A DNA stretch of 64,000 bases from Notolepis coatsorum. Lineage: Eukaryota > Chordata > Actinopteri > Aulopiformes > Paralepididae. Below the pieces are notes generated by a model that saw only the letters and a program-made list of their open reading frames with translations, did no database searches and had not been told where the DNA came from. Shown here piece after piece: positions 1 through 47,940 of this stretch; within the stretch, counting starts at the first letter, position 1, and every line of letters begins with the position of its first letter. The translations under genes were made by a program, and so were the position numbers. The stretch spans positions 87,991,796 through 88,055,795 of the forward strand of contig OZ020589.1 of the NCBI GenBank assembly GCA_963971535.1, read 5' to 3'.

Positions 1-245
1 AGGGCTGACCTCATAATTGGTACTACAACTGCAGTACCATGTGACCTATTACATTTATTGTTAAAGCCATTGACCCATTACTCTCGATCTGACTGTCATT
101 ACAGATAAATACAGAAAGCTAAGTGTGTCCTCAATCCCTCAACATGCAGCATGGAATGGCTGATAGGGGAATGAACAGCGGATATATGAATGACTGAATA
201 TTTAAAATATACACAAGATAACATCCTTTAAAATAGTAGAATATT

Positions 246-1160
246 GGCGGCTGGGTGTCGCAGCGGATATTGCACTCGTCACCAACGCAAGAGACACCGG
301 GTTCGACTCCGGCTGTCTGCGTTGCCTCCGGCTTGGGCCAGCCGTCATACTAACTCAATTGGCAGAGTTAGCAGGTGGAAGTCGATGGGTGGTAATCTGG
401 ACGTTGTGGACAGCGACTCCTACAGGTCGGTTGGGGACGCCTGCACAGCAGAGACAGGAAATGGCGGGGATAGTGTGAGCCTCCCACACGTTACACCTCG
501 CTGTTACGACGGAGACAGGTAGGTTCCAGTTGTGGAGTAATAAGTAGAGGCAGAGAGGGTTGTTTACTCGTTAACGGTGGTTCTCTTTATTTGTAGAACG
601 GTACACCTAGAGTAATAGCAACAGATAGTAACACTGACGCAGGGCGTCTAGGAGAGAAGATAATAATGATAACAATAAAGACAGCAACGTCCAGTGTCTG
701 CGGTACCGCCGTGTACTCTGCAGGAGAATGAGAAGATCTGACAACTGGAAGTAGAGAGACAGGGGTTTAAGTACGACCACATTCCTGACATACCAAGCGC
801 ACCAACATGACAACCAATCAGGAGACCCAAACAATAAGTGACAAGTGACAGGGAGATAAGTGACAGGGAACCCCAGTGACAGGTGTCAGAATGGTGGGTG
901 GTTCTCAGGCGGGACAGAGAACCCAAGCGTTACATCTCGCCAATGAGAGTCCGCGCTGGCAGGTGAAAAGATGTGACAGGCTGCCTCCTCGTGTATCGGA
1001 GGGGACACGTGATGCAAGGCTTCTATCCTCCCTACAACCGGCCAGTGGGGGGCATATGCGAGCAACGTTCAAGACAGGGGAGGGGAGAATTGGCACAACG
1101 GAATTGGGATGGGAGGAAAAATAGAAAAAAGGAGAAAAAGTTGATAAAACTTTTTTTTTA
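246..1160 (+). mobile_element. tRNA-derived SINE, split by a solo LTR
   Basis: The head (about 246-325) looks like a tRNA: GGCGGCTGGGTGTCGCAG followed by a B-box-like GGTTCGACTCC. The body shares long blocks with two other copies in this window (23684-24162 on plus, 47272-47529 on minus), such as the stretch about a GTTGTGGACAGCGACTCC motif. The 3' end is A/T rich near 1160. AATATT occurs just before the head and just after the tail, a possible short target duplication. The body is interrupted at 502-934 by an LTR. It is a non-coding retroposon; the ORFs crossing it have no meaning. Confidence 0.8.
502..934. mobile_element. Solo LTR inside the SINE
   Basis: This 433-bp insertion starts TGTTACG and ends CGTTACA, the TG...CA ends of an LTR. 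It is flanked by CCTCGC (496-501) and TCTCGC (935-940), a 6-bp duplication with one mismatch. Comparison with the uninterrupted SINE copy at 23684 shows extra sequence exactly here. It contains AATAAA-type signals and no coding potential, so it is a solo LTR left by recombination. The ends fit a Gypsy-type element but the family is not proven. Confidence 0.65.
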
Positions 1161-1168
1161 AATATTTT

Positions 1169-1360
1169 GTTAATGGTTAATGTGGCCAGTAACTTCAGTT
1201 ACATTCCTGTTAATGGTTAATATGGCCAGTACTGTAACTTCAGTTACATTCCTGTTAATGGTTAATATGGCCAGTAACTTCAGTTACATTCCTGTTAATG
1301 GTTAATATGGTCAGTAACTTCAGTTACATTCCTGTTAATGGTTAATATGGTCAGTAACTT
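1169..1360. repeat. 40-bp tandem repeat, about 5 copies
   Basis: Units of about 40 bp begin GTTAATGGTTAATATGG and continue CCAGTAACTTCAGTTACATT. Copies differ by a few bases and one carries a 5-bp insertion. Confidence 0.9.
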
Positions 1361-1610
1361 GGTTTAATCCAAACGTCCATTCAGAAACATTGTATTATGA
1401 AATAAGACTGGTGAGTGTGAGTGAGTGTCTCTCAAACACTTCTTGAGTTGATTATAGCCTGCTCGCCTTGTCTTGCAATGGCATATAATCGCGTTCACGT
1501 TCACGTTCACACACATTTAGAATATTTTATTTATGTCCACATAAAAACAAGGTTTAAAGGACACAAATATTAACAGTGCACTTGTACATTGTGGGACTAT
1601 TCGGATACAA

Positions 1611-1774
<164 letters not shown>

Positions 1775-1980
1775 TAAGGCAAAACAGAATTATTCAGCAG
1801 ACGCTTTATGATGTAAGATGTGTGCAACGAGATATAGGCCTATATATTATAGTGTCAGCTAATTAAATACCGAGAGCACTGATAATGTTTGGCCAGCTAA
1901 TTATCCTTTGGATTTTACGTGGGAGGTATAATGAGAACAGGTAGAAATACTCACTACAAATTGATGTGAATTAAGTCTTA

Positions 1981-2102
<122 letters not shown>

Positions 2103-3300
2103 TTATTTGATACAGGGGTTTGTGTACCAAGATCTTCTTCAAATAACTCTCATTATATTTTGTTCAGGGGGGTTGATACTGTTATTTCGATATAAACTCC
2201 ATGCATTGCAGAGATGTTTATTAAGACAGCATTTATGAGGAATACATAAAGCGTTCAATTGTGAATGTCAGTACTCTGATAAAAATAATTTGGTGTCTGT
2301 CTGACAGTTCATGAAGTTTATCTTGGAATAATGATGGATAAGATAGACGTCTCATAACTTCCTTGTGGGTGGTGACAACTTTTCTGAGCCAATGGGCGCT
2401 TTGCGAAAACCAGAGCAAGTAGTTTCCCATCATGCATGAGGTTGAGCAGTCGGTGGAGAGCAACTGCGTCACCTAGCCCTGAAAACTGTGAGCGCCTTGC
2501 TACCATGAGATTTCCACGGCTTGCACAGTCAGATATCCAGAGCAAGTCGGACAACATTCTAACCATCACGCAACATGCTTGGCAAGGCCGTGGTCAAAAC
2601 TGTGCAGGCCTAGCTCATCTCAAACAAGCCTAATGTATGGCGGACGGTGACCCCTCCTCATCTCGACTAGACTGTGTTGTGTTTTGTGTTTGTGCGTGAC
2701 TTTCATGAATTTCAAATTAAACACAACATAGTACTGTCACATTCTGATATATATTTTTTGTGTACATTTAAAAAAATTAAAGAATAAAAAAAAAAGGCAG
2801 AGGTTCAAACCCATTAATTAAGATTTGAGTGCCAACGTAACGAACAAAGGTCCGAACCTTCGAACGTTTGGGCTCAGCCCTACTGGGAGACCCATATTAC
2901 TGACCAAACACTCTATATCAGTGATGGCTGTCAGAATGTAGAGCTATTATTTGAACATGTAGACACTTATTTGAACACAAAATACCATTTACACAAAATA
3001 TCACTTTAACAGCATGTATTTTCAGGACTCAGGAAGAAGAGATCTTGTATCTCAATGGGACATTCCTGGATAAATAAAGGATAAATAATTTTTTTATAAA
3101 ATGTTCTTTTCCTCAATAATATTCCTCCCCTCTTTCTCCCCATGAATGTCCACATCTGAGGACGGAGACGGTCTCTTATCATATCAGAGACAAGAGGACC
3201 TGGTCTCCTCCGCTGGCGCCATGCAGACAGGCCGCCATTAGGACCAGACTGACAGCTTAAAATAGCAGAGAGGAAAATCCATTCCAACATGGTAGTGGGT
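2103..3300. other. Unassigned intronic stretch
   Basis: I recognise no gene or named repeat here. The part at 2225-2635 has overlapping open frames on both strands and a less A/T-rich composition than its surroundings, as an old transposon fragment might. A-rich runs at 2765-2800 and a CAGCCCTA motif near 2875-2883 (reverse complement TAGGGCTG, a hAT-like end) suggest old repeat material without clear ends. Confidence 0.4.
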
Positions 3301-3304
3301 CTCA

Positions 3305-3596
3305 GTAGTGTTTCTCACCCTGTTCTGGTGTGTGACCTCTAGAAACAGCCTGCTCACCACGCTTACACAGTCAAGCAGAGACAGAAGATGAACTTTGACA
3401 CAAAATTATGCTTTTCTATCTCCCCTTTTCAGTCCATTTAACTTGATTAATGATTGAAGGAAGGCTTTCGATTAAAAACAATTATTTCACAAGAAAAAGC
3501 ATATATACCAAAGATTATGAACTATTTTGCAACCCTGACAAAAACATCTCAAACAACCCCTTTAGGGCCCCCGACCCCCAGGTTGAGAGCCACTGG
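3305..3596. mobile_element. Possible hAT (Charlie-like) remnant
   Basis: The right edge ends GGTTGAGAGCCACTG at 3596, whose reverse complement CAGTGGCTCTCAACC looks like a Charlie-type hAT end. A CAGTAGTGTTTCTCA stretch lies near 3305. I could not find a matching 8-bp duplication, so the left edge is uncertain. Confidence 0.35.
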
Positions 3597-4636
3597 TCTA
3601 GTACGTCCTGGGAGGAGGAAAGAGCGGAGATGTACAATTGTGTGTCATCTGCGTAACTATGGAAACATACATTGTGTTTTCTAATGATGTCTCCGAGTGG
3701 CAGCATGTATAGTGAGAATAATAATGGACCAAGGCAGCTCCCCTGTGGAACTCCGAAGTAGGTGTCATGTTTCTCAGAAGAATGATCTCCAAGCCTGACG
3801 TAATGTTTTCTCCCTTTGATATATGTTCTGAACCAGTTTAATACATAGTCAGAAAGACCAACTAACTTTTCTAGACGATTTATTAGGATATCATGGTCGA
3901 TCGTGTCAAACGCTGCGCTTAGATCTAATAGGACGAGAATTGAGACTTTGTTTGCATCAGAGTTTATTCTGAGGTCACTAATTATTTTTGTAAGAGCAGT
4001 TTCAGTGCTATGGTGCGTTCTGAAGCCTGATTGAAATTCCTCCATGATGTTGTTTTCTTTGAGAAAGGAGTTTATTTGTATTGAGACAATTTTTTCAAGT
4101 ATCTTGCTGATAAATGGTGAATGAATTTAGTAATACAGCTGTTTTGAATGCGTCTGGGAAAATACCTGTCAGAAGCGATGTATTTATAATATTTAGGACA
4201 TGACTTGCAATACTCTCGAATATTCGCTTAAAAAATGCTGTGGGTATAGGGTCAATACAGGAAGTGGAGGAGTTACATTCCATGACAGTTTTGTAAAGCT
4301 CAGTTGATGTAATGCAAGCAAATTTTCCTATGGTTACTTTTTCGCAGGGTTTGCTGATGGTGTCCATGTTTGTATTAGGACTAATGCTGGCTCTAATTGA
4401 AGTTATTTTGTTATTGAAGAATAATGCTAGTTCTTCACATTTTGATGCAGATGACTGTGGAGGGGTGGGGGCAGTGTTGAGTAGCTGGTCGATGGCTGAG
4501 AATAATATTCTAGAGTTTCCAACATTCTCTGTGATAATCTTCGAAAAATAGTCCTTTCTTGCCACTCGTATTTCTTTGTTATAGGCAGTCATGGCTTCCT
4601 TATATATATCGCAGTGGACTGTGAGCTTGGTTTTCC
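3597..4636 (-). pseudogene. L2-clade LINE reverse transcriptase, broken
   Basis: This is a 5'- and 3'-truncated LINE read on the minus strand. The upstream part (about 4620-4140) encodes the region leading into the reverse transcriptase (RT) domain. The next part (4045-3598) encodes the RT palm: LLDLSAAFDTIDH with the first catalytic Asp, GVPQGSCLGPLLF, and SYADDTQLY with the catalytic YADD. A frame change near 4100 separates the two. The RT would copy the LINE RNA at a nicked target; this copy lacks the endonuclease and the 3' end and cannot work alone. The motif style is that of fish L2 elements. Its 5' truncation abuts the GTGTAGT array. Confidence 0.85.
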
Positions 4637-5111
4637 TCCAGTATAGTGTGTAGTGTGTAGGGTATAGTGTGTAGTGTGTAGTGTATAGTGTGTAGTGAGT
4701 GACAGGATATACGTACCAGAGTGTGTAGTGTGCATGTAGTGTGTATGCTGTATAGTGTGTATGTGTATGTATCTGTGTAGTGTGTATGTGTTTGTGTAGT
4801 GCGTAGGCTGTAAGTGTAAGGTGTGAGTGTGTAGTGAGTGACAGGATATACGTACCAGAGTGTGTAGTGTGCCATGTAGTGTGTATACTGTATAGTGTGT
4901 AGTGTGTCATGTACGGTGTAGTGTGTATTGTGTAGGCTGCAGTGTGTAGGGTGTAGTGTGTAGTGTGTAGTGTGTAGTGTGTAGTGTGTAGGGTGTAGCG
5001 AGTGGCAGGCTATACGTACCAGAGCTGGCTGAGATGTGTAGTGTGTAGGGTGTGAGTTGTAGGGTGTGAGTGAGTGTGTAGCGTGTAGTGTGTAGTGTGT
5101 AGTGTGTACAA
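4637..5111. repeat. GTGTAGT-rich array with exon-boundary copies
   Basis: Short GTGTAGT-type units alternate with longer units that contain ACGTACCAGAG (near 4710, 4850 and 5014). That longer motif matches the 3' end and 5' splice site of the host exon at 38697-38796, on the same strand. The array continues in fragments at 5623-5660, 23363-23405 and 38621-38696. ORFs here are artefacts. Confidence 0.9.
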
Positions 5112-5622
5112 CAAGATACAAGATACTTTAATGCCACACAACGATGGTTGGTGGTAATTGTTTGCGGTACAGATTGTTAGGCACTGGTTACATCAACATG
5201 AAACATCAGACATCAAACATCAAAACGCCCCCCTCCCACCTCCCAATCCCCACAATAAATACATATATACATAGATACATACAGGACAGTCACGGTAACA
5301 GTGTCAGTCAGTGACAGATGCTTCCCCGTCTGTGCAAAGGGGGGCGGGCCAGGGTATTCAGTGTTCGGACTGCTGTGGGGGAAAAACTGTTTGTGAAGCG
5401 TGTGTCTGGTTAGAATGGACCTGTAGCGACCTGAGGGCATGTGCTGGAATAAGAGGTGTGCTGGGTGAGAGGGATCGTTGACTATTTTACCAGAGCGGGT
5501 GACTGTGCGTGAGGTGTAGATGGAGTCCAGAGAGGGGAGGGGGCAGCCAATTATTTTGGAGGCTGTCTTGGTGATGCGTTGGAGTTTGTGTTTGGTGTGT
5601 TTATCAGTGGAACCGTAGGGTG
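5112..5622 (-). pseudogene. LINE 3' end with C-terminal RT-ORF fragment
   Basis: On the minus strand, 5620-5350 reads as the C-terminal tail of a Rex1/CR1-like LINE ORF: IIGCPLPSLDSIYTSR, then a NDPSHPAHLLF motif, which matches the position of the SHPNN motif in the LINEs at 27733-35560. The rest is 3' UTR ending in a TACAAGATAC-type short tandem tail near 5112. It is heavily 5' truncated. Confidence 0.7.
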
Positions 5623-5941
5623 TGGGGTGTAGGGTGTAGTGTGTATTGTGTAGTGTGTAGCAGGGACGTGCAGTCAGTGGTGTAGCAGAGACCCGCGCAC
5701 CCCCGCGGTGCGGGGGAGCCCCGGAGCTTAGGAGGCCCCACCCCCACTGTAGGCTATCCTCTTAGATTTCGTAACGGGAACAGGGCTAGGCACCCCGTCA
5801 TGTGTATCATTCTAATAATTATTTGCTCACCTGCGATAGGGCTAGCCGGCTGATAACTAATGTTCATTGGCAGGCTGGGCAACGTTCAAAACAAAGTGGG
5901 AAGCATTGCTAATTTAACGTTCATTAATTGCATTGCCGGTA

Positions 5942-6211
5942 AAAATGAAGTGCAAATACCCAAGCGGGGCTCAGAAAAACAAGATGAGAGTGAAAGCCGA
6001 ACAGGAGACGGCAAAGCTACCAAAAATAACATCATTGTTCCAGCAGGCAGCAAAGGTACTGGTAGACTCTAACATTACTGCAGATGCATCGGCAGTAAGC
6101 TCCAACCCAGCTAGGCCACTGCTAGCAACCCCCCAATCAGCTCAGAGTCCAGGCAGACAGCAGACAGACAGCCCAGCCAGGCCCCCAGCCACGCTACAGC
6201 CGCAGAGACAG
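5942..6211 (+). pseudogene. hAT transposase N-terminal fragment (ZMYM-like)
   Basis: From the Met near 5942 the frame reads KCKYPSGAQKNK and then a basic, low-complexity region rich in Ser, Pro and Gln. A KYPSGAQK start is typical of the N-terminus of ZMYM-like hAT transposases of vertebrates. The reading frame fades near 6211, where sequence of the opposite orientation begins. The zinc finger, catalytic core and dimerisation part are missing on this strand until the C-terminal piece at 21054. Confidence 0.6.
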
Positions 6212-8363: not shown

Positions 8364-9716
8364 TCACACCTCCAGGACTCTTCCAAGTAACCAGGAACCA
8401 CGTGGAGCTGTAGCGTCTGCGATCAATACAATGTCTCCAGGGACAAGACTTCGTCTCTCCTTACTCCACCTCTGCCGCTCCTGTAGCAAAGGTAAGTATT
8501 CTCTCAGCCAGCGTTTCCAAAAAAGGTCTGAGATGTATTGGACTTGTCTCCATCTCCTTTTGAGGTAGAGGTCGGACTTCTCAAACAATCCAGGTGGCAA
8601 GATTGGCATTCTTTTCATTGTGAGAATGTGATTGGGAGTGAGAGCTTCCAGATCGTTGGGATCTCCAGACAACTTTGTTATGGGGCGGTCATTAAGAATG
8701 GCTTCGACTTCACACAGCACTGTATGAAATCCTTCGTCAGTCAAGGTTTGCTGGTGTAGAACTGATGTTAGTATTCGTCGAATCATCCGTATGATGCGCT
8801 CCCATGCACCTCCATGATGAGAGGCTGTTGGTGGGTTGAAGCTCCACTGAATTCCTTCCTCCAGAAAAGCTGATTGTATTTTGCTGTGGTTTAAAGCAGC
8901 GAGAGCTTCCCTCAACTCTCTTTTAGCACCAACAAAATTGGTTCCATTGTCCGATCTTAAATGAGAGATGGGTCCTCTTCTACAAACAAACCTGCATAGA
9001 GCATTTATACAGGAGTCCGTATCCAATGAATAAGCAACTTCCAAATGGACTGCTCTACATGCCATACAGGTGAAAATGACTCCATAGCGCTTTTCAAAGG
9101 AACGTCTCCTCTTGACCTCAATCGGGCCAAAATAATCAACTCCAACATTGGTAAATGGAGGAAGATCAGCAACGATTCGCTCTAGAGGCAAGTCTGACAT
9201 CTTCTGCTCACCCAACTTTCCTCTATGGCGTTTGCAGAAGACACAGTCAGACAGGACCTTTCTTGTTGCTGCATTGGCACTAGTGATCCAATATTTTCGG
9301 CGCAATCTGGAGAGAACATGGTTTCTCCCACCATGACCCATCTGTTCGTGGATGTGCTTTAGTATGAGAGTCGATACATGGAGGTCTTTTGAGAGGATAA
9401 CAGGATGTTTAGATTCCTCAGACATTGCTGCCTTACTCAACCTCCCTCCAACTCTAAGCAAGCCATCCTCCAGAATGGGGTCCAGTTTATAGATGGGACT
9501 GTCTTTCTTTACTTCACCCTTTCCAGATGTCAACACAGCAAGTTCATCAGGGAACTTTTGCTGTTGAGTGAAGCGAATGATGGCAGACTCAGCTGTAGAA
9601 AGATCATCTGGTGTTAAGTTCTGGTTTCCCAATGCAGCTCTACTTTGTTGCATTTCCTGTTCCACTTTGTCTGCATCTTCATGACTCAGTTGGTTTCTTT
9701 TATGACTCATCTCCAA
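8364..9716 (-). pseudogene. BEL/Pao integrase
   Basis: This 450-codon open stretch starts in the linker between RNase H and integrase. It has a zinc-binding HHCC-like region (HEQMGHGGRNHV, then DCVFCKRHRG) and a DDE catalytic core. The three acidic residues are D194 in GVDYFGP, D256 in SDNGTNF and E306 in GGAWERII, spaced D-61-D-49-E as in BEL integrases. In a live element it would insert the cDNA into the genome. The frame stays open to LLGRVLEV at the end of the C-terminal domain. The upstream polyprotein is broken, so it cannot be made in the normal way. Confidence 0.9.
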
Positions 9717-9740
9717 TAGAGTCTTTCGTAATTTCAGGAT

Positions 9741-10061
9741 TCAAGCAACTGACCTTTTCAACCTTTTCCAGTCAGAAAAGTAAGTGATCAGTTGGTGTGT
9801 GGCACTTGCTGCATCGACAATTACTGCGTTGATGGTGAGATCCTTTTTGACCTCAGGGTCATCAGCAGCAATGTTGTACTCCAAGATGCTATCTGGCCAC
9901 TCTTCCTCTGGTTTCCAAAAAAACTCAGGGCCTTCAATCCACCTTCCTATTAACAATAGCAGCGGGGTTGACACTCTCACTCCGCTGCTCACTGTAGCCT
10001 GATAGGGGACCATTAATGACCCACCCCAATAGGGTCTTAATGGCATATGGGCCATTGCCAC
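9741..10061 (-). pseudogene. BEL/Pao RNase H to integrase linker
   Basis: This 106-codon fragment has EGPEFFWKPEEEWPD, the conserved segment just after RNase H in BEL polyproteins. It overlaps the frame of the integrase piece with a frame change near 9730. Upstream sequence joins almost directly to the protease, so most of the RT and RNase H coding region (several hundred codons) has been lost. Confidence 0.7.
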
Positions 10062-10152
10062 GACTATTCACAACTTCCCAAGGTTCAAGCATTTGAGGCA
10101 TTGGTACCTATCAATAACTCAACAGCTTGAATCCAAGGAAGGGCAACCCCAT

Positions 10153-10638
10153 CTAAGTATGGCCACTTAGCCAACTCCTCTTGGCTAATGATGTTGTGGT
10201 TACGGGCATCCTCTTCTGGGTGTAGACCTTGGGCAGGTCATAGAACTGTTTCCCAGTGAGGCTGGAGATCTCCAAGTCTGTCAGTATGTAGCTGGACACA
10301 GATGCCTTTGGGCCCATGGTATGTAAGCTGATTTGTGTTTTCCTTTCTGTAAGGTTCAGCCTTCTCATTAGGGATTCTGAACAAAATGTGTCAGTGCTGC
10401 CTGGATCTAAAAATGCATATGTTGTGATGATTTTGTCTCCCTTGCTGGACTTCACCTGTACAGGCAAGATTGACAGAGTCCCATTGCTGCTTCCGGCCCC
10501 TGTTTGTCCACATGTTTGCAAAGAGATCTGTGCGTTACTCACCGAAGGTTTCTTTGGCTGGTTTGTGTTGCTTGCTCTCTCCTTCTGATTAATATGAAGA
10601 ACACTGGGATGGTTTTGGCTGCACACCTTGCAAGTCAA
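10153..10638 (-). pseudogene. BEL/Pao Gag zinc knuckle and protease
   Basis: The fragment opens with a CCHC-type knuckle (TCKVCSQNHPSVLH). It continues into an aspartic protease with the active-site motif FLDPGSTDTF, where LDPGS stands in place of the usual DSG or DTG. The protease would cleave the Gag-Pol polyprotein. It ends at SLAKRSW, after which RT should start but does not. Confidence 0.75.
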
Positions 10639-10692
10639 GCGCTTCTCGCAATTCCTGCTAAGATGTCCAATGCGAAGGCAGCCAAAACAGAT

Positions 10693-11499
10693 TCATTTTT
10701 GCCTTATAAAAGTAATCTTGTCCCTGTGTGTCTTCTCCTCCATCTGAGGACATTGATCCAGAGTGTGATTTTTAGAGCAACATACACAAGTGTTGGTGTT
10801 GTGAGCAGATGCATTTCTTTGCTTTGCAGGGGTTTCGATGGTAGTAACTGTGGTTGCAAAACTGTCTCCTTTGAATTTGGGTTTAATTTGTGATTTCATT
10901 CTGTTCATGTTCATAGGTTTACTTCCTGTACTTGGTGGTGTATTTTGAATGTCTCCGGAAGACTGGGTCTGAGACAATCTTTAGCTGGCGCTCAATGAAT
11001 GTGACAATATCCATGAATTGTGGTCTGCGATGGTGTTTTTCCATTATCGAACATACAGAGACTCTCCAATTCTCTCTGAGCTTGTATGGAAGCTTTGAAA
11101 TCAATACTTTCATGTTCGCTGGCATATCGAGTTCCCTCATGTACTGGACATTCTTCATAGCATTACAGCACTCCCGAAGGAAAAGAGCATAGGCTTGAAG
11201 AGATTTTATGTCTTCAGCCTTCACTAGCGGCCAGTTGAGCATCTTCTCCATGTAAGCTGCTGTGATTTTATATTCATCTCCAAAGTGTTGTTCAAGTAGG
11301 TACTTTGCCATATCATAACCTCTGTCTGGAGCCATGTGTTGACAGCTACGCACAAGCTCTTTGGGCTGACCCCTGGTGTACTTCTCCAAGAAGTACAAAC
11401 AATCACCTCTGTTTCTTGTGTTCTTCTCCACACAATGAACAAAGGCTCTGACAATGCAGAGGATCCCCATCAAAATATGGAATCTCTCTTGGTGGCAGT
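10693..11499 (-). pseudogene. BEL/Pao Gag, C-terminal half
   Basis: Two overlapping frames (11473-10919 and 10977-10693) encode Gag. Recognisable segments are FVHCVEKNTRNRGDCLYFLE, CQHMAPDRGYDMAKYLLEQH and FGDEYKITAAYMEKML, then a knuckle CVCCSKNHTLDQC. The frame is shifted near 11470, where an overlapping frame reads LPPREIPYFDGDPL. Gag is the structural protein that packages the RNA. The next upstream codons lie on the far side of the TIR element, at 15584. Confidence 0.8.
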
Positions 11500-11508
11500 A
11501 AGTGAGTT
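11500..11508. repeat. Target duplication, left copy (9 bp, 7 of 9)
   Basis: AAGTGAGTT here pairs with AAGTGGTTT at 15575-15583 on the far side of the TIR element. Two mismatches mean the length of 9 is the best reading and not a certainty. Confidence 0.5.
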
Positions 11509-12025
11509 AGGCGAGTCAATCTATGAAAAAAAAGCACTTAACCCAAAAAAAATTTATACAAAAGGTTTTTTGATGGATTCCGATAGTATTGGGCGTGCTA
11601 AATAACATACTAAAAGTTGACCAAAATCGACCCCCCCGAAAGCCGCCATTTCCAAGATGCCGTCCCAGATGGCGGTGGAGATATTAAAATGGCTATATCT
11701 CAAATTGAGAATATGGTGCAAAGGATTTCTCAACTGATTCTGGTACCTCTGGGCATGTTCACTAACATACTAAAAATCTAGGAAAATTCACCTTCCAGAA
11801 AGGCTTAATTTTCAAGATGGCGTCCAAAATGGCGGCAGACCAAGCTTAAAATGGCTATATATCTCAATAGAAAAAAATATATAACTATGATTTTTCACTT
11901 GATTCTGGTACCTCTAGACATGCGTGTGAACATACTAAAAATCTAGGAAAATACACCTTCCGGAAAGGCATCATTTTCAAGATGGCGTCCAAACTGGCGC
12001 CCAGGAGCTTAAAATGACTATACAA
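11509..12025 (+). repeat. Left terminal inverted repeat with sub-repeats
   Basis: After 67 bp of end sequence, three tandem units start at GATTC in 11576, 11736 and 11901 (periods 160 and 165). Each unit contains GGTACCTCT-like, ACATACTAAAA, a stem of CACCTTCC, then AAGATGGCGTCC and TTAAAATGGCTATA. The same units, inverted, form the right end. The repeated AAGATGGCG resembles a YY1-type site. Confidence 0.9.
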
Positions 12026-12047
12026 ATACAAATAGCTTACTAAAAAA

Positions 12048-12331
12048 GGTGTTTGCACTCTCCAGCTCTCAAGCTAGCATAGTTGAAGCCTTCTTTTTGA
12101 CCATTATAGTTGTTATAGTTAGAGGTGTTTGCACTCTCCAGCTCCCAAACTACCATCGTTGAAGCCTTCTTTTTCTGAATCAGTTTCTTTCTTTCTTTTC
12201 TGACCTAGTCCTGTGTTTGGGCATGCCTGGGCGTGTCTGACCTGGCAGTGTTATTTAAGCCCCAGTTTCATTCTAGTCTTTGACAGAGGTGTTTGCACTC
12301 TCAGCTCTCAAGCTAGCATAGTTGAAGCCTT
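12048..12331 (+). repeat. Three 5' copies of a 45-bp repeat before the ORF
   Basis: GGTGTTTGCACTCTC...GTTGAAGCCTT copies start at 12048, 12124 and 12288. Each ends in a pyrimidine-rich GAAGCCTTCTTTTT. In the last copy this run leads into TTTTTAGCTAG, a possible 3' splice site just upstream of the nuclease ORF. Confidence 0.8.
12249..12262 (+). promoter_or_regulatory. Possible TATA-like promoter of the TIR element
   Basis: GTTATTTAAGCC lies about 100 bp upstream of the ORF start, in a short non-repetitive spacer between the second and third 45-bp repeats. It is the only TATA-like motif I noted between the left repeat and the ORF. Function is inferred. Confidence 0.3.
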
Positions 12332-12357
12332 TTTAGCTAGGAGCAATTGGTACACTG

Positions 12358-14823
12358 ATGGACGGTACAGGACTTAAGGAGATTCTAGGGGTAGTCTATG
12401 GGGAGAACTCAGTAGCCCATATGATGACAGGCAAATCAGTTCAGAGAGCATTCCGTGGCCATCTTCTGGTTGACAAATATCTTAACCGCATGATAATATC
12501 AGAAATGGTAGATGATAGTCATGAATTTGCAGCAATGGTTGAACAGTCTGAAGCAATGTATACCTCAATAGTTAAGGGTGAAATGCCATTGGAAACAGTG
12601 TTCACATCAGAGACCCTCATTACAATAAATGAAGAGCTGGGAAAAAGGAAGATGGAACTGTGTGCTAGATCCAAAACTAGTCAGTTGTGGCTAAATTACC
12701 AACACATGTTAGAAGTTGCTAGGTCACTGATAACAGCAGATCGCACAGGTTCCTGGCTTTTGCACCTACGCGCTGTTTCTGAATGCATGCCGATATTCGC
12801 TGCGGCTGGGCATTACAATTACTTGAAATCGGCACACTTTTATGTCCAAGAGATGAGTCAGCTTCACATCAACCACCCAGATGTCTTCAGACAATTTGAA
12901 AAGGGTTTTCATGTTATCCGTCGCAGCAGCCAATCATGGGCAGGCCTCAGCTCAGATCTTGTAATCGAAACAACATTGATGAGGTCATTGAAGACTACAG
13001 GAGGGATGACACATGGAAGTGGAATGACCGACAATCAGAGATCCCTTTGGACAATGTCAAAGGGCATAACATCAGAGTATAACACCGCAATGCAGGAGTT
13101 CTCAAACCAGACATACACAACATCAGAACAGCACAAGGATTCAACAGAGGCAAGGATGAAAAGGGATGCTGCTGACCTGGAGAAGATCACTTCAAAACTT
13201 GCTATATGTTCACCTTTCTCTCCAGACTCTTCTTTAAGGAATGTTGTTACAGGTGTTGTCGCTGAGGATGGAGTGAACGTGCATGATTATGACTCTGTTG
13301 GACGCAACATCATGCACAAAATGATCGGACAGCCGGCATTCACATTTTCATTTAGTAGAAAGGATAAAGCCATAACCCTTGGACAAAAATCGTCTATCAA
13401 GGTTGCTCCTGATCGAATCATTGATTCTGCACTTCTTTTTCAACGTTTCCTTATTGTCTCCCAAACTGGAGAGCTGTCATTGGAGGAGGTTATGCGTTAC
13501 GAACTCAGTCCTTTCCCTCCTGCCCTCTTTGAAGCCGGAAACGTCTTCCGCAAAGCTGATAAACCACAACTAGCGCACGCGATCTGTGATCATGCAAGTG
13601 ATGCAATCCTAGATTCTGTACCAGAAACGGAGCATTATGTTCTTGATGGTGGTTCACTCCTTCACCGAATACAATGGAAGCACGGACAAAGCTATGGTAA
13701 AATTGCACAGTCATATGCAGACTTCACCATCCAACATTATGGCTCAGCTACAACCATTGTGTTTGATGGCTATGAGGATGGGCCATCCATTAAAGACAAC
13801 ACACATCAAAGAAGAGGAAACAATATTCATCCCATTGTCAACTTCACTGCTGAGACAGAGTTCTCAGGTAAGAAGGAGGAGTTCCTGTCAAGAGATCTGA
13901 ATAAACAGAAACTGATCCACATGATAAGTGATGAACTGAAAGAACGGGATTGCACTGTGGTCAATTCACTTGGAGATGCTGATGTAGACATAGTAAGGGC
14001 CGCAGTGGGATCATCTCTTCTTCACACCACAACGCTGATTGGAGAAGATACTGATCTCCTCGTCTTACTTCTTTACTATGCACAGAGAGATAGCAAGGGC
14101 CTTTATTTCAGATCAGACAAGTCGAAAGCTGATGGCAGTTTTAAAGTGTACGCCATAAACCATTTGAAAGAAGTATTCGGACAGGATGTGTGTTCTCAGT
14201 TGCTGTTCATCCATGCTGTGACTGGCTGTGACACAACTTCCCGGATCTTCGGAGTTGGCAAAAATACAGCATTCCAAAAACTTGTAAAAGGGGATCCTGT
14301 CCTTCAGGCTTGTGCCAATGCATTCACTGTACCAAACCAGACAACAAATGTGATCGATGACCTTGGGTGCCAAGCAATGGCTGTCTTTTTTGGTGGAAAG
14401 TGCACAGATTCGCTTGCAAAAATGAGATATAACATTTTCAGCAAGAAGGTTGTCTCAGCTTCATCAACGGTAACGCCTGAACGTCTACCACCAACTGAAT
14501 CTGCTACCAAATTCCACTGTCGTAGAGCATACTACCAGGTCATGGTCTGGATGGGACCAGATGATGGTATAGATGCTCTAGACTGGGGCTGGAACCTGCA
14601 GGACAATAGATTTGTCCCACTCATGTCAACAATGAATGCTGCTCCAGACAGTCTCTTGAAGGTCATTCATTGTAACTGTACCACTGCCTGCAAGACACTT
14701 CGCTGCTCATGCAGAAAATATGGACTACCTTGTACTACTGTCTGTGGACCATGTCAACTTCATGAATGTGACAATCCACATAACAAGTTTCTCCCAGAGG
14801 ATCCTGAAGATGATGATGAGTAG
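12358..14823 (+). CDS. Transposon protein: partial transposase, FEN1/XPG-like nuclease, CXC
   Basis: The frame encodes 821 aa without a break. Residues 1-330 resemble the back half of an RNase H-type transposase family I recall from many animal genomes (around 135-240, with D200 and E204 in SDLVIET). Residues 430-700 match the FEN1/XPG 5' nuclease order: LDGGSLL (D430), VFDGYEDG (D470), GDADVD (D540, D542, D544), IGEDTDLL (D564, D566) and TGCDTTSRIFGVGKNTA (D625, then a helix-hairpin-helix-like turn). These line up with D34, D86, E158/E160, D179/D181 and D233 of human FEN1. Residues 772-804 form a cysteine cluster of Tesmin/TSO1 (CXC) type. The start is probably not the true protein start: upstream in frame GAIGTL continues the family's usual sequence after a likely splice acceptor at 12332-12341, and no 5' exon is visible. 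Family assignment is by eye. Confidence 0.8.
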   Translation: MDGTGLKEILGVVYGENSVAHMMTGKSVQRAFRGHLLVDKYLNRMIISEMVDDSHEFAAMVEQSEAMYTSIVKGEMPLETVFTSETLITINEELGKRKMELCARSKTSQLWLNYQHMLEVARSLITADRTGSWLLHLRAVSECMPIFAAAGHYNYLKSAHFYVQEMSQLHINHPDVFRQFEKGFHVIRRSSQSWAGLSSDLVIETTLMRSLKTTGGMTHGSGMTDNQRSLWTMSKGITSEYNTAMQEFSNQTYTTSEQHKDSTEARMKRDAADLEKITSKLAICSPFSPDSSLRNVVTGVVAEDGVNVHDYDSVGRNIMHKMIGQPAFTFSFSRKDKAITLGQKSSIKVAPDRIIDSALLFQRFLIVSQTGELSLEEVMRYELSPFPPALFEAGNVFRKADKPQLAHAICDHASDAILDSVPETEHYVLDGGSLLHRIQWKHGQSYGKIAQSYADFTIQHYGSATTIVFDGYEDGPSIKDNTHQRRGNNIHPIVNFTAETEFSGKKEEFLSRDLNKQKLIHMISDELKERDCTVVNSLGDADVDIVRAAVGSSLLHTTTLIGEDTDLLVLLLYYAQRDSKGLYFRSDKSKADGSFKVYAINHLKEVFGQDVCSQLLFIHAVTGCDTTSRIFGVGKNTAFQKLVKGDPVLQACANAFTVPNQTTNVIDDLGCQAMAVFFGGKCTDSLAKMRYNIFSKKVVSASSTVTPERLPPTESATKFHCRRAYYQVMVWMGPDDGIDALDWGWNLQDNRFVPLMSTMNAAPDSLLKVIHCNCTTACKTLRCSCRKYGLPCTTVCGPCQLHECDNPHNKFLPEDPEDDDE

Positions 14824-15016
14824 GCCTAAAGACCACAATAAGTGGGTCATTTATTTTGTGTTCAACACCAAAGCCAGCTTTCTAGGTTGAATATAATAAC
14901 CAATTTTAATTTTAGCCAAAATAAGCTACAGGCAGCCATTTTGATGATGCAAATGATGCATTCCTAGCAGATATATTTAGCTAGATATTTTGCTCGTTAT
15001 TAATGTATAGAGGTGC

Positions 15017-15574
15017 CAGAATCAGTTTATAAATCCTTTAGAAATGTTTTCCCATTTGAGATACAGGCATTCTAAGCTCCCAGTCGTCATTTTGGACACC
15101 ATTTTGAAAATTAAGCCTCTTCGGAAGGTGTATTTCCCTAAAACTTTAGTATGTTCCTAAGTATGTCTAGGGGTACTTGGGGTACCAGAATCAAATGACA
15201 AAATCATTTATATAATTTTTATATTGACATATATATAGCCATTTTAAGCTTGGCCAGCCGCAATTTTGGACGCCATCTTGAAAATGAAGCCTTTCTGGAA
15301 GGTGTATTTTCCTAGATTTTTAGTATGTTAGTGAGCATGCCCAGAGGTACCAGAATCAGTTGAGAAATCCTTTGCACCATTTTCTTAATTTGAGATATAG
15401 CCATTTTAATCGCCCCGGCGCCATCTGGGACGCCATCTTGGAAATGACGGCTTTCGGAGGGGTCGATTTTGGTCGACTTTTAGTATGTTATTTAGCACGC
15501 CAAATACTACCAGAATCCATTGAAAAACCTTTTGTATACATTTTTTTGGGGTTAAACCATATATTGACTCGCCT
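15017..15574 (-). repeat. Right terminal inverted repeat with sub-repeats
   Basis: Read on the minus strand from 15574, units begin at GATTC in 15517, 15357, 15192 and 15023 (periods 160, 165 and 169). They are close copies of the left-end units, so the right end carries one unit more than the left before the similarity fades. Confidence 0.9.
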
Positions 15575-15583
15575 AAGTGGTTT

Positions 15584-16700
15584 GCTGCTCCACTAGCATT
15601 GCTGTTATCTCATTTAGCCTTTTTAATAGGTTGCATACAACTGAGGTTTCATTGCTTTGAGGTGAAATTACAGTTGGGGTCGTTAGCTGCACAGGAGGGC
15701 CCATGTGAGTTGTATTGTCCTGTGCTCCATCCCAAGACACATGTTGTCTTTGTAAAGATGGCGGTTGTGTTTGAATGAGAGTTAGCTGTAACAGCATAGA
15801 TTGTTGTCTTTGCCAAAATGGGGGCTGTTGAATGGGTGTTGGCTGCATCAAGTGCATAGGTTGTTGTATTTGCCAGGGTGGTGGTGGTTGAATGGGTGGT
15901 TATTGCTGTTGCATAGCTTGTGGTTTCCATAGTGATGGTTGTTGCACATATGATTACTGTGCAGATGGTTGCTGCAGTTCTGGTGGTTGCATAGATGGTT
16001 GCTGTGGTTCTGGTGGTTGCATAGACGGTTGCTGTGGTAGTGATGTATATTCTTTTGCATGAGGATTGAGAGTGACTGAGGGTTCCTTTAACCTTGTTCC
16101 TTTCCTGTAGTAGGAGTCCATTCCATCGGACTGTGTGAGTGAAAGAGCTTGGTGACTGGGGGATTGTAATACTGCTATTCTTGCGTTGGTAGCTGCCAGT
16201 TGTGCATCAAGCTCCATCGTTTCCTTTGTCTTTTTCAGGATCTGTTCCTGCTCTTCCAGAGCGTGTTTATCCTTTTTCAGGGTGTGTTTCAGGATCTGTT
16301 CCTGTTTTTCCAGAGCATGTTTATCCTTTTTCAGCATTTGTTCCTGCTCCTCCAGAGCGTGTTTATCCTTTAACGCTGCAGCGCGAATCACAAGTGAAGC
16401 TCTATCTGCCTCGGCCTGTAAGCGAGCTACTGAGGTAGAAGATCTGCTGGACCTGCTGGTACCAGACCTTGTGTGACCTTTGTGAGCAGATTTTTTACTT
16501 CCCACATTAGAAATGCTGTCATTTGGATTAATTAGATTTTGCACGTCCTCCTCATTCTTATTAACACTTTCCACATTAGAAATGCTGTCATTTGGATTAA
16601 TTAGATTTTGCACGTCCTCCTCATCATCATTAACACTTTCCACAGGTTTGATCATTTTTGTCCTGTCCATCAATAAAGTCATTGACATTGATAATTTTGG
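15584..16700 (-). pseudogene. BEL/Pao Gag, middle part with coiled coil
   Basis: The frame from 16688 to 15954 encodes an acidic stretch with a duplicated NEEDVQNLINPNDSISNV block, then a Ser/Arg-rich stretch. A long helical region with repeated KDKHALEEQEQILK heptads (a likely coiled coil) follows, then Gln/Pro-rich repeats. The frame shifts near 15950 and continues to KRLNEITAMLVEQQ at the edge of the TIR element. This is the N-terminal, multimerising part of a BEL Gag. Confidence 0.75.
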
Positions 16701-17201: not shown

Positions 17202-18508
17202 TAGCTAGGGCTGGGCGATATGACCAAAAACGTTATCGAGATTAAATTATAAAATTATTTTCATATAATTCGATATCGATAATTATCGTCGATATAATGT
17301 CTGTCAAGTTTAATTAACTTCTAATATGCTGCTGCGAATGTCTCAAGTCGAGTTGATGTCGTCATCAGTCCTCGCACGTTAGCAGTTAGCCGACAAGCGG
17401 AGTATCTCATGACAATAAATATGACACTAAAATACTCTCTTCCGCCACAATATATTGAAACGACGTCCACTCCCACACTACTATAAACGTGGCCTCAGAA
17501 TTCAAAACACACACATACTCGGCACGTAAATATATAAAACAGTGCCGTGCAAGCTAGTTAACCTAGCCAGCCTGTTGCTTCTACGCGGTGTATTCCATGA
17601 CAATGTGCTAAATATCACACTAAAATACTCTCTTCCGCCACAATATATTGAAACGACTTCCACTGTATACCCCCACTACTATAAACGTGGCCTCAGAATT
17701 CACCACACACACATACTCGGCACGTAAATATATAAAACAACGCCGTGCAAGCTAATTAGCCTAGCAAGCCTTGTTGTTGAGTGAGTCCTACCGCTCTGGG
17801 TCTCCTTCCGGGTCTCCGTCGATCTCGGCCATCTCCTTCACTGATTGGTTGTTAGCTGTTGTGCGTAGCACGTCATCACGTAAGGTTGGTTGTTGTTAGT
17901 GAGTGTGCTGAGCCGAGGCTGAACGGAGCCAAGCTTGGAAAATCGATATATCGAAACTTTGCGACCACGTTTTTAATGTTTATTTCGAGGAAATAATTTA
18001 TCGCGATAGTTATCGTTATCGTTTTTTCGCCCAGCCCTAAATGTAGCCCCTTTCGTGACTGTGATGCACGGAGTGAATCCACAGTCACTTGCTCCTCAAT
18101 AGGAAACCAACCTAGATTTACCATGAAGGACTGGTTCTGGCCGAGCCGTTCGTTATACAAGAATCACAGAGACGTTTCAAAGGTGCTCACAGTTGCACGA
18201 GGGTTTCGGACAGAGATACGGGATGGTTTGAAAGCTCTGCGTTGCTAATAAACATTTTAAATAATTTTTATAAACTGCTCAAAACGGCATTATTTCCGCC
18301 ATTGGGTGATCACAGCGCATGCGCACCATCCCGTATCTCTGTCCGAAACCCTCGTGCAACTGTGAGTACCTTTGTAATTCCTCTGTGATACTTGTATAAC
18401 GAACGGTTCGGCCAGAACCAGTCCTTCATGGTAAATCTAGGTTGGTTTCCTATTGAGGAGCAAGTGACTGTGGATTCACTCGGTGCATCACAGTCACGAA
18501 AGGGGCTA
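17202..18508. mobile_element. Foldback MITE with 9-bp duplication, split by a hAT
   Basis: Two arms of roughly 190-200 bp, starting TAGCCCCTTTCGTGACTG, face each other across a spacer of about 70 bp (arms 18048-18240 and 18310-18508). A perfect 9-bp duplication ATGACAATG lies at 17193-17201 and 18509-18517. The left arm is cut after its fourth base by a hAT (17206-18039). A 9-bp duplication with long palindromic arms fits a Mutator-like MITE. Confidence 0.85.
17206..18039. mobile_element. Non-autonomous hAT (hAT-D)
   Basis: The ends are TAGGGCTGGGCGATA and its inverse ...CGCCCAGCCCTA, with a perfect 8-bp duplication AATGTAGC (17198-17205 and 18040-18047). Internally there are two partial copies of a segment with ACTCTCTTCCGCCACAATAT (near 17433 and 17622). 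No transposase is present. Confidence 0.92.
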
Positions 18509-24300: not shown

Positions 24301-24496
24301 CAAACATAGACTTACCATCACAAGGGGCGGAGCCAGGCGTTCATGGAGTAGGTCACGTTTTCACGGGAGCTCCCTATTATTGTGTGAAATACACTTGTCA
24401 CCCCACTAGTCTTTATTTTATTTTTATTTTTTATTGGTCCTTTTGTTGAGTGGTCGAGTATCCACTACTTTCGTCGACCTTTTTTCAATTTTCACG

Positions 24497-25390
24497 ATGA
24501 CAATGAGTACCAGAGCCTCGAGTACCCCTGCCGGCAAAATGACATCGGGCCCGTCCACGCTGTCGCCAGAAATTAGTGAAATTCTCTCGGTCGTGACCAA
24601 ACTCCATGAGGGCTTTGAGGAACGCTTCGCTGAGGCACAGAAGAAAGCGCAGGCGGAGCTGTTTGATTCCTTTCATCGGGTAATATCGGAGGAAATCAGG
24701 CTGGCGGTCGCCCCGATGAGAGAAGAGATGGAGTCGTTGCACGCTAACACCGCGGCAAATGCTATTGAGCTAGCCTCGCTAACGACAGAGGCCTCTCGAC
24801 AGAGCGAGAAGGTGGCGGGTCTTGAGAGCTCCCTGCGGGCTATGCAGGCTGACGTTTCCCAACTACAGTCGGTGATTATGGAGATGCAGTCCCGGGAGAG
24901 ACGATACAACATCAGGATTGTCGGTGTACCGGAGGGCAGTGAGGGAGGAGGACATCTTTCGGAGAGCGTGCCGGAGCTACTGCAGAAGATACTGGGGAAG
25001 GAAGTCCTCTCCGACCCTCCTGTGTGTGAAACGGCCTACAGAGCGGGCAAGGCCAGTCCTGGTGTGAGCAGGGGGCCGAGGCCTATCATTGTAAAGCTAA
25101 ACAGGCTACAACAGAGAGAGCTCATCATGCGGTCGGCCCGTGCCAGGAGGGGGGAACTCGCTATCGGCAATCACAAAGTGGCCATTTTCGAGGACTTCAC
25201 ACCGGAGGTTCAAGCGGAGAGAAGCAAATACAAAGTGGTCATGGCCAAGCTATGGAATCTGGGCATGAGGCCTACACTATTTGCCCCCGCAAGATTGTCT
25301 GTGCTGTGCAAGGGCGATGACCGTCGCTCATTTTGGACGTTGGCCAGGGCGGAGGAATATCTAGGGGGGTTAGCCGTGACGGTGGCTTGA
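24497..25390 (+). CDS. L1 ORF1 protein (RNA-binding)
   Basis: The frame is open from 24434, but the Met at 24497 (ACGATGACAATG, A at -3) is the better start, giving 297 aa. After a Ser/Thr-rich leader comes a helical region (about residues 25-130) with heptads and EEMESLHANTAANAIELAS, likely the trimeric coiled coil. Next is an RRM-like domain beginning RRYNIRIVGVPEG, and a C-terminal domain with ERSKYKVVMAKLW. ORF1p binds L1 RNA as a trimer in the cytoplasmic particle. The frame is intact. Confidence 0.9.
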   Translation: MTMSTRASSTPAGKMTSGPSTLSPEISEILSVVTKLHEGFEERFAEAQKKAQAELFDSFHRVISEEIRLAVAPMREEMESLHANTAANAIELASLTTEASRQSEKVAGLESSLRAMQADVSQLQSVIMEMQSRERRYNIRIVGVPEGSEGGGHLSESVPELLQKILGKEVLSDPPVCETAYRAGKASPGVSRGPRPIIVKLNRLQQRELIMRSARARRGELAIGNHKVAIFEDFTPEVQAERSKYKVVMAKLWNLGMRPTLFAPARLSVLCKGDDRRSFWTLARAEEYLGGLAVTVA

Positions 25391-27143
25391 TAGCTATGTC
25401 GGGTGAGTGACTTGATGTGTTGGACCTAGATGCATTGACAGGGCGGACTACTCACAATTGCTGGTTGTCATGCCTAATGACTTCGGTGACTTGCTAAATG
25501 CTGACCTCATGGTCGTACGTGTGCGTCGCCTTTATGATAGCTAGCGAGTTAGCTGGACAATGCTCATTTCAGATGCGGGCGTACGGGCTGGTTTCATCAC
25601 TAGCTTGCGTGCTAGCATCGAACTAACTAGCAGGCTACGGCTATCGCCCGCATCGAGACATTCGAGAACCGATAATGTTTGCGTATGCACAATTCAACGA
25701 TGATCGGGTCCTTATCTTACTTCTTATATGCTTTAATTTTTATTTCCAGGCTGTTTTGAGCTTTGGGCTCCAGTAGTATAAGGTCGGTTGAGTATATATA
25801 TGCAATTTGTGATAACAGGTTGTGTCAGGTATAGCTTAGTATTATCACCGGGTTAATGAAGGTGTTTAATTCTATTCTTACATAGGTTATGTCATTCCAG
25901 CCGTTGTGCCTGACCAGAGGAGCTGCTACATGCTTGCACTTAGTCCATAACCCCTTTTTTCCTTTTCTTCTCATTGTCGCTGTTTAAATAACATCTACTT
26001 GCGCAATCTAACTGTGACCCGATCCTGCCTTAGTCTATCTGCTGGTATGCTTTGGTTTGATTTTGTTTTGAATTTTCCTTTATCCATTTATGCTATAACG
26101 TTGCGACATTAATACGCAGACTCTGTAGTAGATGGTTACAGGGCTGATGTTGACATTCGAAACCCGATAATGTTTGCGTATGCACAATTCAACGGTGATC
26201 TGGTCCTTTTCTTACTTCTTGTTTGCTTTAATTTTTATTTCCAGGCTGTTTTGAGCTTTGGGCACTAGTAGTAGAAGGTCGGTTGAGTATATATATGCAA
26301 TATGTGATAACAGGTTGTGTCAGGTATAGCTTATTATTATCCCCGGGTTAATGAAGGTGTTTAATTCTATTCTTACATAGGTTATGTCATTCCAGCCGTT
26401 GTGCCTGACCAGAGGGGCTGTTACTGTTACATGCTTGCACTTAGTCCATAACCCCTTTTTCCTTTTCTTCTCATTGTCGCTGTTTAAATGGCATCTATTT
26501 GCGCAATTTAATTGTGACCCGATCCTACCTTAGTCTAGCTGCTGGTAGACTTTAATTTAATTTTGTTTTGAATTTTCCTTTATCCATTTATGCTATAAAG
26601 TTGTGACATTAATACGCAGACTCGGAAGTAGATGGTTACAGGTCTGATGTTGAGCTATTATATAGTAATGGCAAATTTTTCCATTATAGTTGTCTCATGT
26701 TAGGGCCTAGGCTCACGGTGGTTTTCGACCGATATCTTTATTGAATTTAATTTTAATTTTAATTTGTGTTTAGTGGACTAGTGGGGGTTGATCAGGGGGT
26801 TATCTAGAGGGGGGTCGATGTGGAGAGTGTCTTATTGGATCCATGACTCCAGTGGGTATTGATAGGAAGATGACCATCCTTAGTGGATGGGGCAGAGTGA
26901 GGGGATCGGAATGTGGGTATAGGAGGGTTAATGCTAGGACGAGTGGGTTAGGGTTTAGAGCAGAAGGAGGGGGGGTTGTTGTAACTGGGGTGGTTTTGTT
27001 CTGTGTTTTATGTACTGTTGTCTTATATGTGTGTGATTGTTCCTCCTCTGAACTCCTGGGATTGACCGTCTGGGCCCGCCTGGATCAGCGCCTCGAGCCT
27101 CAGCCTGGCTGCACTGGTATGTTCTCTACGCATTTAGACAATT
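25391..27143 (+). other. L1 inter-ORF region
   Basis: No ORF here is supported. The first 270 bp contain GCTAGC/TTAGCTGG motifs, followed by the tandem duplication (25659-26650) and a G-rich stretch (26780-26990). An internal promoter or ribosome entry for ORF2 could reside here, but nothing in the sequence proves it. Confidence 0.6.
25659..26650 (+). repeat. 495-bp tandem duplication between L1 ORFs
   Basis: Two units beginning GACATTCGA(G/A)A(A/C)CCGATAATG at about 25659 and 26154 are nearly identical. They cover half of the inter-ORF region. Each unit includes the TATATATATGCAATTTGTGA-like block. Confidence 0.85.
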
Positions 27144-27732
27144 TTGACCATGGCTAAATTGAATATTTTAATTTGGAACGCTGGGGGTCTTAACGCCCCA
27201 CACAAGCGTGCCAGTGTCCTTTGGTTATTGAAGAGAAGAAATATTGACATTGCTCTCCTTAGTGAGACGCATTTATTGGTGGGTGATGTGTCAAGGCTGG
27301 CAAATCGACAATATCACGTTATCTCCTCATCCTCAGCCGATGATAAGACGAAAGGAGTCGTCATAGTTACAAGACGTAACCTTGATATCAAGGTCCTGGA
27401 CGTGTGGTCGGACACGGAGGGAAGGATTACTATAGCAAAAGTTGAGTTTTCTCATAGGAAGATGGCAATAATAGCATTGTATGCTCCTAACACATTTGAT
27501 TCAGCGTTCTATAATACAATCACGAAGAATATGTTGGAACTTACTGGATACGCTCTCATTGTGGGTGGCGATTTTAATGCGTGCTGGGATGCGGAGATGG
27601 ATAGGTCCGGGTCCTCTGAAACGAGCGACCAAAAACGGTCCTCTAAGGCCCTCAGGATGTGGGCCCAGGACACGGGGCTCGCAGACCAATGGCGCTTATC
27701 CAATCCCACCCTCAAGGATTACTCTCACCTGT
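27144..27732 (+). pseudogene. L1 ORF2, endonuclease part
   Basis: The frame opens with MAKLNILIWNAGGLN. It has the apurinic-type endonuclease signatures: Asn in WNAGG, Glu in LLSETHL, ALYAPN, and Asp/Asn in VGGDFNACWD. It would nick target DNA to start reverse transcription. It is cut at 27732 by a LINE, and the last endonuclease motif SDH lies at about 30900 after two insertions. Confidence 0.9.
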
Positions 27733-28882
27733 GGCACTCACCTCTGTGGTCATGAAATGTTTCGAGAGGCTGGTCAAGGACCACATTTGTGCCTCCCTCC
27801 CCAGTGATATGGACCCTATGCAATTTGCATACAGGACAAACAGGTCCACCGACGACGCGGTCTCCCAGGTACTGCACAGCACCCTCTCGCACCTTGACCG
27901 TCAGAAGGGGGGCTATGTGAGACTGTTGTTCATTGACTACAGCTCAGCGTTCAACACCATAGTCCCCACCAGACTGGTGGACAAGCTGATCGAGCTAGGT
28001 CTGAGCTCCGCCCTGAGCGCCTGGGTACTGGACTTTCTGAGCGAAAGACCCCAGGCAGTCAGGGTGGGGGGTCAGACCTCCAACACCATCACTCTGAGCA
28101 TCGGGTCCCCCCAGGGCTGTGTTCTGAGCCCCCTGCTGTACTCACTCTACACACACAACTGTGTGGCCAAGTTCAGCTCCAACTCCATAGTGAAGTTCGC
28201 AGACGACACGGTGGTGGTGGGGCTGATCTCGGACAACGACAAGAAGGCCTACCGGGAGGAGGTTGAGGTACTGGAACGCTGGTGCCAGGACAACAGCCTG
28301 CTCCTGAACATTGGTAAAACCAAGGAGCTGATCGTGGATTATAGGAGAGGACAGCAGGAGACGCACACACCACTGATGATTAACGGGGCTACCGTGGACA
28401 GGGTGAGCAGCTTTAAGTACCTGGGGGTCCACATCTCAGAGGACCTGACATGGTCAACACACATAGACACAGTAGTAAAGAAGGCGAAACAGCGCCTCTA
28501 CCACCTGAGACAGTTAAGGAAGTTCAGAGTATCGGGGAAGATACTCCAGTCCTTCTACTCAGGAGCTGTAGAGAGCATCCTGACCGGAAACATCACTGCC
28601 TGGTATGGAAACAGCACGGCACAGGACAAGAAGGCCCTACAGAGAGTGGTGCGCTCAGCCGAGCGTACCACGGGTATTGCACTACCCCCCCTGCAGGTTC
28701 TATACAACAAGAGGTGCAAATCCAGAGCCTGCAGGATAATGAAAGACCCTCACCACCCCAATAACAGCCTGTTTCAGCTGCTGAGGTCAGGCAGACGCCT
28801 GCGAACCCCAGCTACTAGGACAGAGCGGCTTAGGCTCAGCTTCTTCCCCCAGGCCATCAGAGCCATGAACAATGAACATTGA
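27733..28882 (+). pseudogene. Reverse transcriptase 3' half (LINE A1)
   Basis: The open stretch reads through from L1 into [30 protein letters not shown] (first catalytic Asp), [16 protein letters not shown], and [10 protein letters not shown] (catalytic ADD). The thumb and C-terminal region follow, ending PQAIRAMN before the stop. It is close to, but clearly a different subfamily from, LINE B. The endonuclease and fingers are lost. Confidence 0.88.
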
Positions 28883-29306: not shown

Positions 29307-29341
29307 TGTCAGCCAGACACAAAACCTTCTCTCGAATAGAC

Positions 29342-30831: not shown

Positions 30832-30836
30832 TAGAC

Positions 30837-47529: not shown

Positions 47530-47940
47530 TACAAATCTACATTTTCCTATTACTTTTTAAATAACTCAATTTTGAAAAGATCTAAAGATTTTTTTTAAAG
47601 AAATCATATTCAACTGGGGTACAGTACCTCCCCTTAAAGGTATAGTTCAGATGTTTGTACATTAAGTTGTACATGTATGAATTACTTGCTAGTAGTATAC
47701 TGTAGTTGATGCAATGGCGAGTCTCGTGAATGGAGCCCTGGCCTGGTTCCAAGAGAACCAGGAAGCTTCAGAAGGGCAGCAAACAGGGTTAGGAGACAAA
47801 GAAGTGTTAATCCACAACACAACATGCAGGCAAACGTTTTAACCATCCACAACTGAAAATTGTGGTCCTCCAGCATTTTCTATGCTGCAGATCGACACCA
47901 TGTGTTGGAACTAGCCCCATTGCCACGTAGTTACTACACT

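Follow-up and report, generated by a model that had tools for sequence, protein, structure and literature searches.

The window analysed here, a 64,000-nucleotide stretch of the Notolepis coatsorum genome, contains an internally shortened transposon copy at positions 11508-15575, and the 821-residue open reading frame (ORF) at 12358-14823 on the plus strand belongs to the surviving 3′ part of its transposase gene. We consider it probable that this element is an internally deleted, presumably non-autonomous cut-and-paste transposon of the AcademX type, in which a DDE core would join the 3′ ends and a flap nuclease would act on the 5′ strand. An earlier sequence-only reading had recognized a FEN1/XPG-type nuclease inside a mobile element with inverted repeats, and both points were borne out. 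The nuclease is not a stand-alone protein: in an intact copy it is one part of a 1455-residue transposase protein.

The ends of the element read TAGGCGAGTC, and it is flanked by a 3-bp target-site duplication, AGT, at 11505-11507 and 15576-15578. Its terminal inverted repeats (TIRs) are ~500 bp long with internal ~160-bp sub-repeats. The left TIR (11508-12040, plus strand) starts with TAGGCGAGTCAATC and comprises about three diverged sub-repeats; the right TIR (15061-15575, minus strand) ends with ...GACTCGCCTA. Between the left TIR and the coding region lies a 5′ leader (12047-12334, plus strand) in which a ~50-bp repeat occurs three times, at 12047-12096, 12123-12172, and 12287-12334. The TIR sub-repeats (11686-11990 and 15238-15440) also carried nine AANATGGC motifs against a mean of 0.16 in single-base shuffles, although these motif copies are not independent; they resemble the YY1 site.

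The host sequence at the insertion site is a gag gene on the minus strand. Dropping one AGT restored the gag frame, as read by eye, from ...VEQQTT on the right flank into HLLPPREIPYF on the left flank. The surrounding Bel/Pao-like LTR retrotransposon (8364-16688, minus strand) is interrupted by the transposon, with gag pieces at 10919-11473 and 15954-16688, a frame break in gag near 11473, and an integrase-like ORF at 8364-9716. Elsewhere in the window, an inverted repeat at 18044-18508 (arms of 196 nt, 93% complementary, 73-nt spacer) is perhaps a hairpin-type MITE. By eye, a run of LINE-like ORFs at 24434-37472 appeared nested: other reverse transcriptases interrupt the pieces of an L1-like ORF1 and reverse transcriptase. 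Tandem arrays, consisting of a GA-rich stretch and of 36-bp, 35-bp, and 33-bp units, occupy 46272-46892, 47929-48577, 55654-56710, and 57794-58606, and several long ORFs within them looked like mere repeat translations by eye.

The sequence-only reading had proposed searching the same genome for full-length copies, and this search yielded an intact one, L011. It carries a single 1455-residue ORF; the element measures 5,975 bp and occupies positions 3-5977 of the aligned stretch. The encoded protein consists of N-terminal Cys/His clusters, a putative DDE transposase core, the nuclease, and a CXC cluster. The window copy corresponds to L011 positions 3-831 joined to 2735-5977, with identities of 98.2% and 99.5% and a 3-bp overlap, and thus lacks ~1.9 kb (about positions 832-2734). 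The true start and about 625 residues were lost with this segment, as were two of the three acids in the putative DDE triad. The deletion junction lies at about 12332-12334, inside the 5′ leader, and the surviving coding part spans 12337-14823 on the plus strand, the ATG at 12358 being internal Met635; the window ORF represents residues 635-1455. Consistent with this, when two longer relatives were compared with the window by tblastn, coding homology began abruptly at 12337 (residue 292 of P0001 and 626 of P0005), and the window upstream of this point had no match to either. A hidden upstream intron or exon encoding the N-terminus was ruled out, as the coding homology starts only ~830 bp from the element end and the intact copy has a single frame.

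Interrupted gap repair commonly leaves short-overlap deletions like this one, and several other copies carried different internal deletions of their own. Without two of its three putative DDE acids, the window copy could presumably be mobilized only by protein that intact copies supply. The single open frame described in the earlier reading is therefore genuinely open but belongs to a 5′-truncated gene. Likewise, the nuclease and CXC parts of the domain set that it described were confirmed, but the set was incomplete because the N-terminal part is missing from the ORF, together with two of the putative DDE acids. In another copy, L010, ~480 extra bases were present between the coding end and the right TIR (4056-4536), with 18 element bases repeated on both sides, possibly a nested insertion.

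We examined target-site duplications in 21 copies (20 fetched copies plus the window), which were picked by matches to the whole window ORF and thus do not sample the family at random. Both ends were readable in 15 copies, and 11 of these showed an exact 3-bp duplication when the terminal T was counted as part of the element. The remaining four (L020, L023, L027, and L028) had both ends without an exact 3-bp duplication. Six copies were left out of the count because one or both ends were unusable: neither end was available in L012, L013, and L017, the right end was missing in L015 and L019, and the right-end match of L025 lacked the terminal motif. Duplications of other lengths or registers were ruled out, as each alternative tested fitted at most 2 of the 15 copies.

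The nuclease occupies approximately 13600-14400 on the plus strand. In alignment A1, D430, D470, D540, D542, D564, D566, and D625, together with K479 and R486, were identical in all 50 rows. In the full-length alignment A2, six of the seven acids were invariant (33/33), the D566 equivalent was Asp in 32 rows and Glu in one, and the Lys and Arg equivalents were present in 32 of 33 rows, with one gap each. We then used hhalign to compare residues 405-700, as a 208-row profile, with a five-member FEN profile, four of whose member sequences were taken without individual verification. The score was 47.9 (probability 84.8, 269 columns), compared with 25.3 for the best of 200 column shuffles, 18.9 for the reversed profile, and 14.7, 14.7, and 22.8 for other stretches of the same protein, the last of which overlaps the nuclease region by 41 residues. 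A 50-row profile gave a similar result (46.6 against at most 23.1 in 100 shuffles). The alignment placed the seven acids on FEN1 D34, D86, E158, E160, D179, D181, and D233, and K479 and R486 on FEN1 K93 and R100, so that all nine catalytic positions fell on FEN1 residues.

On the basis of this profile alignment and the conserved residues, residues ~405-700 of the window protein are a predicted FEN1/XPG-like nuclease domain. The earlier claim that the seven active-site acids were retained in order and spacing therefore held. Its statement that all are aspartates is correct for the window ORF, but FEN1 itself has Glu at E158 and E160, where the transposon family has Asp. FEN1 K93 and R100 are the basic arch residues. 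For XPG, seven carboxylates and the basic arch residues K84/R91 are described in a published study (PMC7515719). The features shared with the FEN1/EXO1/XPG family are thus the seven carboxylates, the arch Lys and Arg, and a GxD...GxG hairpin (GCDTTSRIFGVGK). Unlike those enzymes, the window-type nuclease is part of a transposase and is too divergent for a Pfam match: neither the window nor the intact protein had an above-threshold match in Pfam, including to XPG. Used by itself as the template, human FEN1 reached a score of only 17.0, which is not significant given that the highest of 30 shuffles was 21.9, and an hmmsearch of PDB sequences with the family profile matched no chain. Three listed relatives (P0005, P0062, and P0131) carry the JGI label 5′-3′ exonuclease, and the other JGI-named ones are labelled 'hypothetical protein'.

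Outside the nuclease, alignment A2 showed D436, D439, D591, and E838 in all 33 full-length rows. From this conservation, we infer a putative DDE triad of D436 or D439, D591, and E838. The C-terminal part of the putative DDE core remains in the window at approximately 12358-13560 (plus strand) and holds the conserved Glu of a DLVIE motif, corresponding to full-length E838. The middle region of three of the eight relatives scanned showed a likeness to Pfam DUF6589 (PF20231), a domain of unknown function, at E-values of 2e-5 to 7e-5, which is below the curated cut-off; a Pfam scan of the intact copy protein gave no DUF6589 match. A P-type ATPase match near residues 24-117 was far below the cut-off and was taken as chance.

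The N-terminal residues C9, C12, H51, C54, C98, C128, and H158 were likewise present in 33/33 rows of A2. The C-terminal cysteines noted in the earlier reading also proved to be conserved: nine were found at approximately 14670-14790 (plus strand), each kept in 44-47 of the 45-47 A1 rows covering the cluster. The cluster is named Tesmin/TSO1-like CXC from the UniRef labels of relatives only, and the Pfam TCR/CXC profile matched neither the window nor the intact protein. These cysteine clusters may help to bind DNA. The more specific proposal that the CXC cluster binds the element ends gained no support: the LIN54-type motif TTYGAA occurred once in the two TIRs against a mean of 1.74 in 100 single-base shuffles, a weak test because that motif was assumed.

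A search of the fish's own genome (3.42 Gb, 4787 contigs) returned at least 55 ORF matches, including the window, among 4325 candidates. They shared 98-100% protein identity, their open frames ran from 820 to 1467 codons, and some contained internal stops. This number of copies ruled out a host gene at one locus. A TIR search of the genome gave 816 candidate places, of which 40 were scored, and at least 41 matches; among the matches listed, 5 of 41 TIR matches had one of the 55 ORF matches no more than 5 kb away. The transposon copies are ~99% identical, the family was recently active, and the window copy, in which 7 of 2463 sites depart from the majority, is young.

The open frame of the window copy, in which the nine catalytic residues are intact as they are in all 21 copies examined, could in principle mark a functional gene, either domesticated or serving as a useful non-autonomous nuclease. 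We regard this as highly improbable. Mutations private to one of the 21 copies had an N/S ratio of 3.48, compared with 3.27 expected without selection, and included five stops; shared mutations (n = 12, N/S 1.4) were too few to carry weight. Moreover, the window deletion junction was absent from all 23 other fetched copies (L001 being the window copy itself), and the ATG of the ORF is an internal Met. The copies thus look neutral after insertion, and because they are also ~99% identical, the open frame reflects youth.

Relatives of the protein are common in animals, although the sequence-only reading had found the domain set unfamiliar. Of 8000 candidates scored in a protein search, 638 were relatives at E ≤ 1e-3, and the nuclease region of a mussel protein as query returned 278 of 1645 candidates, with many of the matches listed being 1400-1530 residues long. 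Named sources among the matches listed were fishes (Coilia, Synaphobranchus, and Xyrichtys), hagfish, crab, lobster, sea spider, mussels, clams, a snail, corals, sea cucumber, and sponge. The named full-length relatives among them came from corals and molluscs, and most others were shorter records. For viral relatives, 48 stretches matched a pattern and none was confirmed.

Within a comparison set of P0030, P0034, P0072, and the window protein, the crab protein was 78% identical to the window protein over 460 residues and 57% identical to the lobster protein over 464, and hagfish and lobster were 78% identical over 419. The closeness of crab to the window protein rather than to lobster, and of hagfish to lobster, suggests horizontal transfer, although contaminated single assemblies could also account for it. 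The hagfish UniRef record (P0072) has two predicted OST-HTH/LOTUS domains before the nuclease and CXC cluster and lacks most of the DDE part, an architecture that may reflect domestication or a fused gene model.

The nuclease of AcademX elements is XPG-like. In one study, AcademH elements are described with 9-10 bp duplications and AcademX with 3-4 bp duplications, a difference seemingly tied to the encoded helicase and nuclease (PMC10045372). Because the nuclease and the 3-bp duplication match this description, the family is likely a member of AcademX, a kind already described, assigned by features and not by sequence; the tie to Academ suggested by the earlier reading thus appears sound. We think it unlikely that the element represents a distinct, undescribed DDE superfamily that gained its FEN1/XPG nuclease independently of AcademX. 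The lack of any above-threshold Pfam match, with DUF6589 below threshold in only three of eight relatives, would fit such an origin, but both the nuclease and the duplication length are as stated for AcademX in that source. No CXC cluster was described for an Academ element in the literature surveyed, which would also fit but has little weight since the defining Academ paper was outside its scope, and none of the papers listed by a literature search covered both Academ and XPG.

In the proposed mechanism, the DDE core would nick the 3′ ends and join them to target DNA 3 bp apart, and the flap nuclease would cut or trim the non-transferred 5′ strand, releasing the donor flank. These steps are inferred from the anatomy of the element, while its parts, the duplication, and the recent spread were observed. 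A more specific version, in which the fused FEN1/XPG domain is the second-strand cutter, reading the forked intermediate of strand transfer as a 5′ flap, then cutting at the element 5′ ends, is tentative, and we would not favor it at present. Such a division of labor would be like that of Tn7, in which the DDE enzyme TnsB acts on one strand and a second, restriction-enzyme-like nuclease, TnsA, on the other; the likeness concerns the proposed division of labor alone, and we claim no homology.

The domain might instead be dispensable for the transposition chemistry and block or steer host repair at donor and target sites, which we consider possible, if on the unlikely side. Kolobok elements, whose target duplication is TTAA, offer a parallel. 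Their lineages (KolobokE, D, P, and H) combine a DDD/E transposase with different accessory nucleases or helicases, which suggest auxiliary roles, and the accessory folds are lambda-exonuclease-like, DnaQ, His-Me finger, or RecQ rather than FEN1/XPG (PMC9587614). Against a repair role, the active-site residues are nearly invariant in both alignments and the nuclease shares a single polypeptide with the putative DDE core throughout, but both observations are compatible with either reading.

The window thus illustrates how, in a genome rich in transposable elements, a large ORF can pass for a complete gene although it is a deletion product. If the FEN1/XPG domain does cleave the second strand, it would constitute a eukaryotic single-polypeptide counterpart of the TnsA/TnsB division of labor. 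This young family, which combines clean 3-bp duplications with an intact copy and near-identical relatives, is a practical choice for studying why a flap nuclease is present in some DDE transposons.
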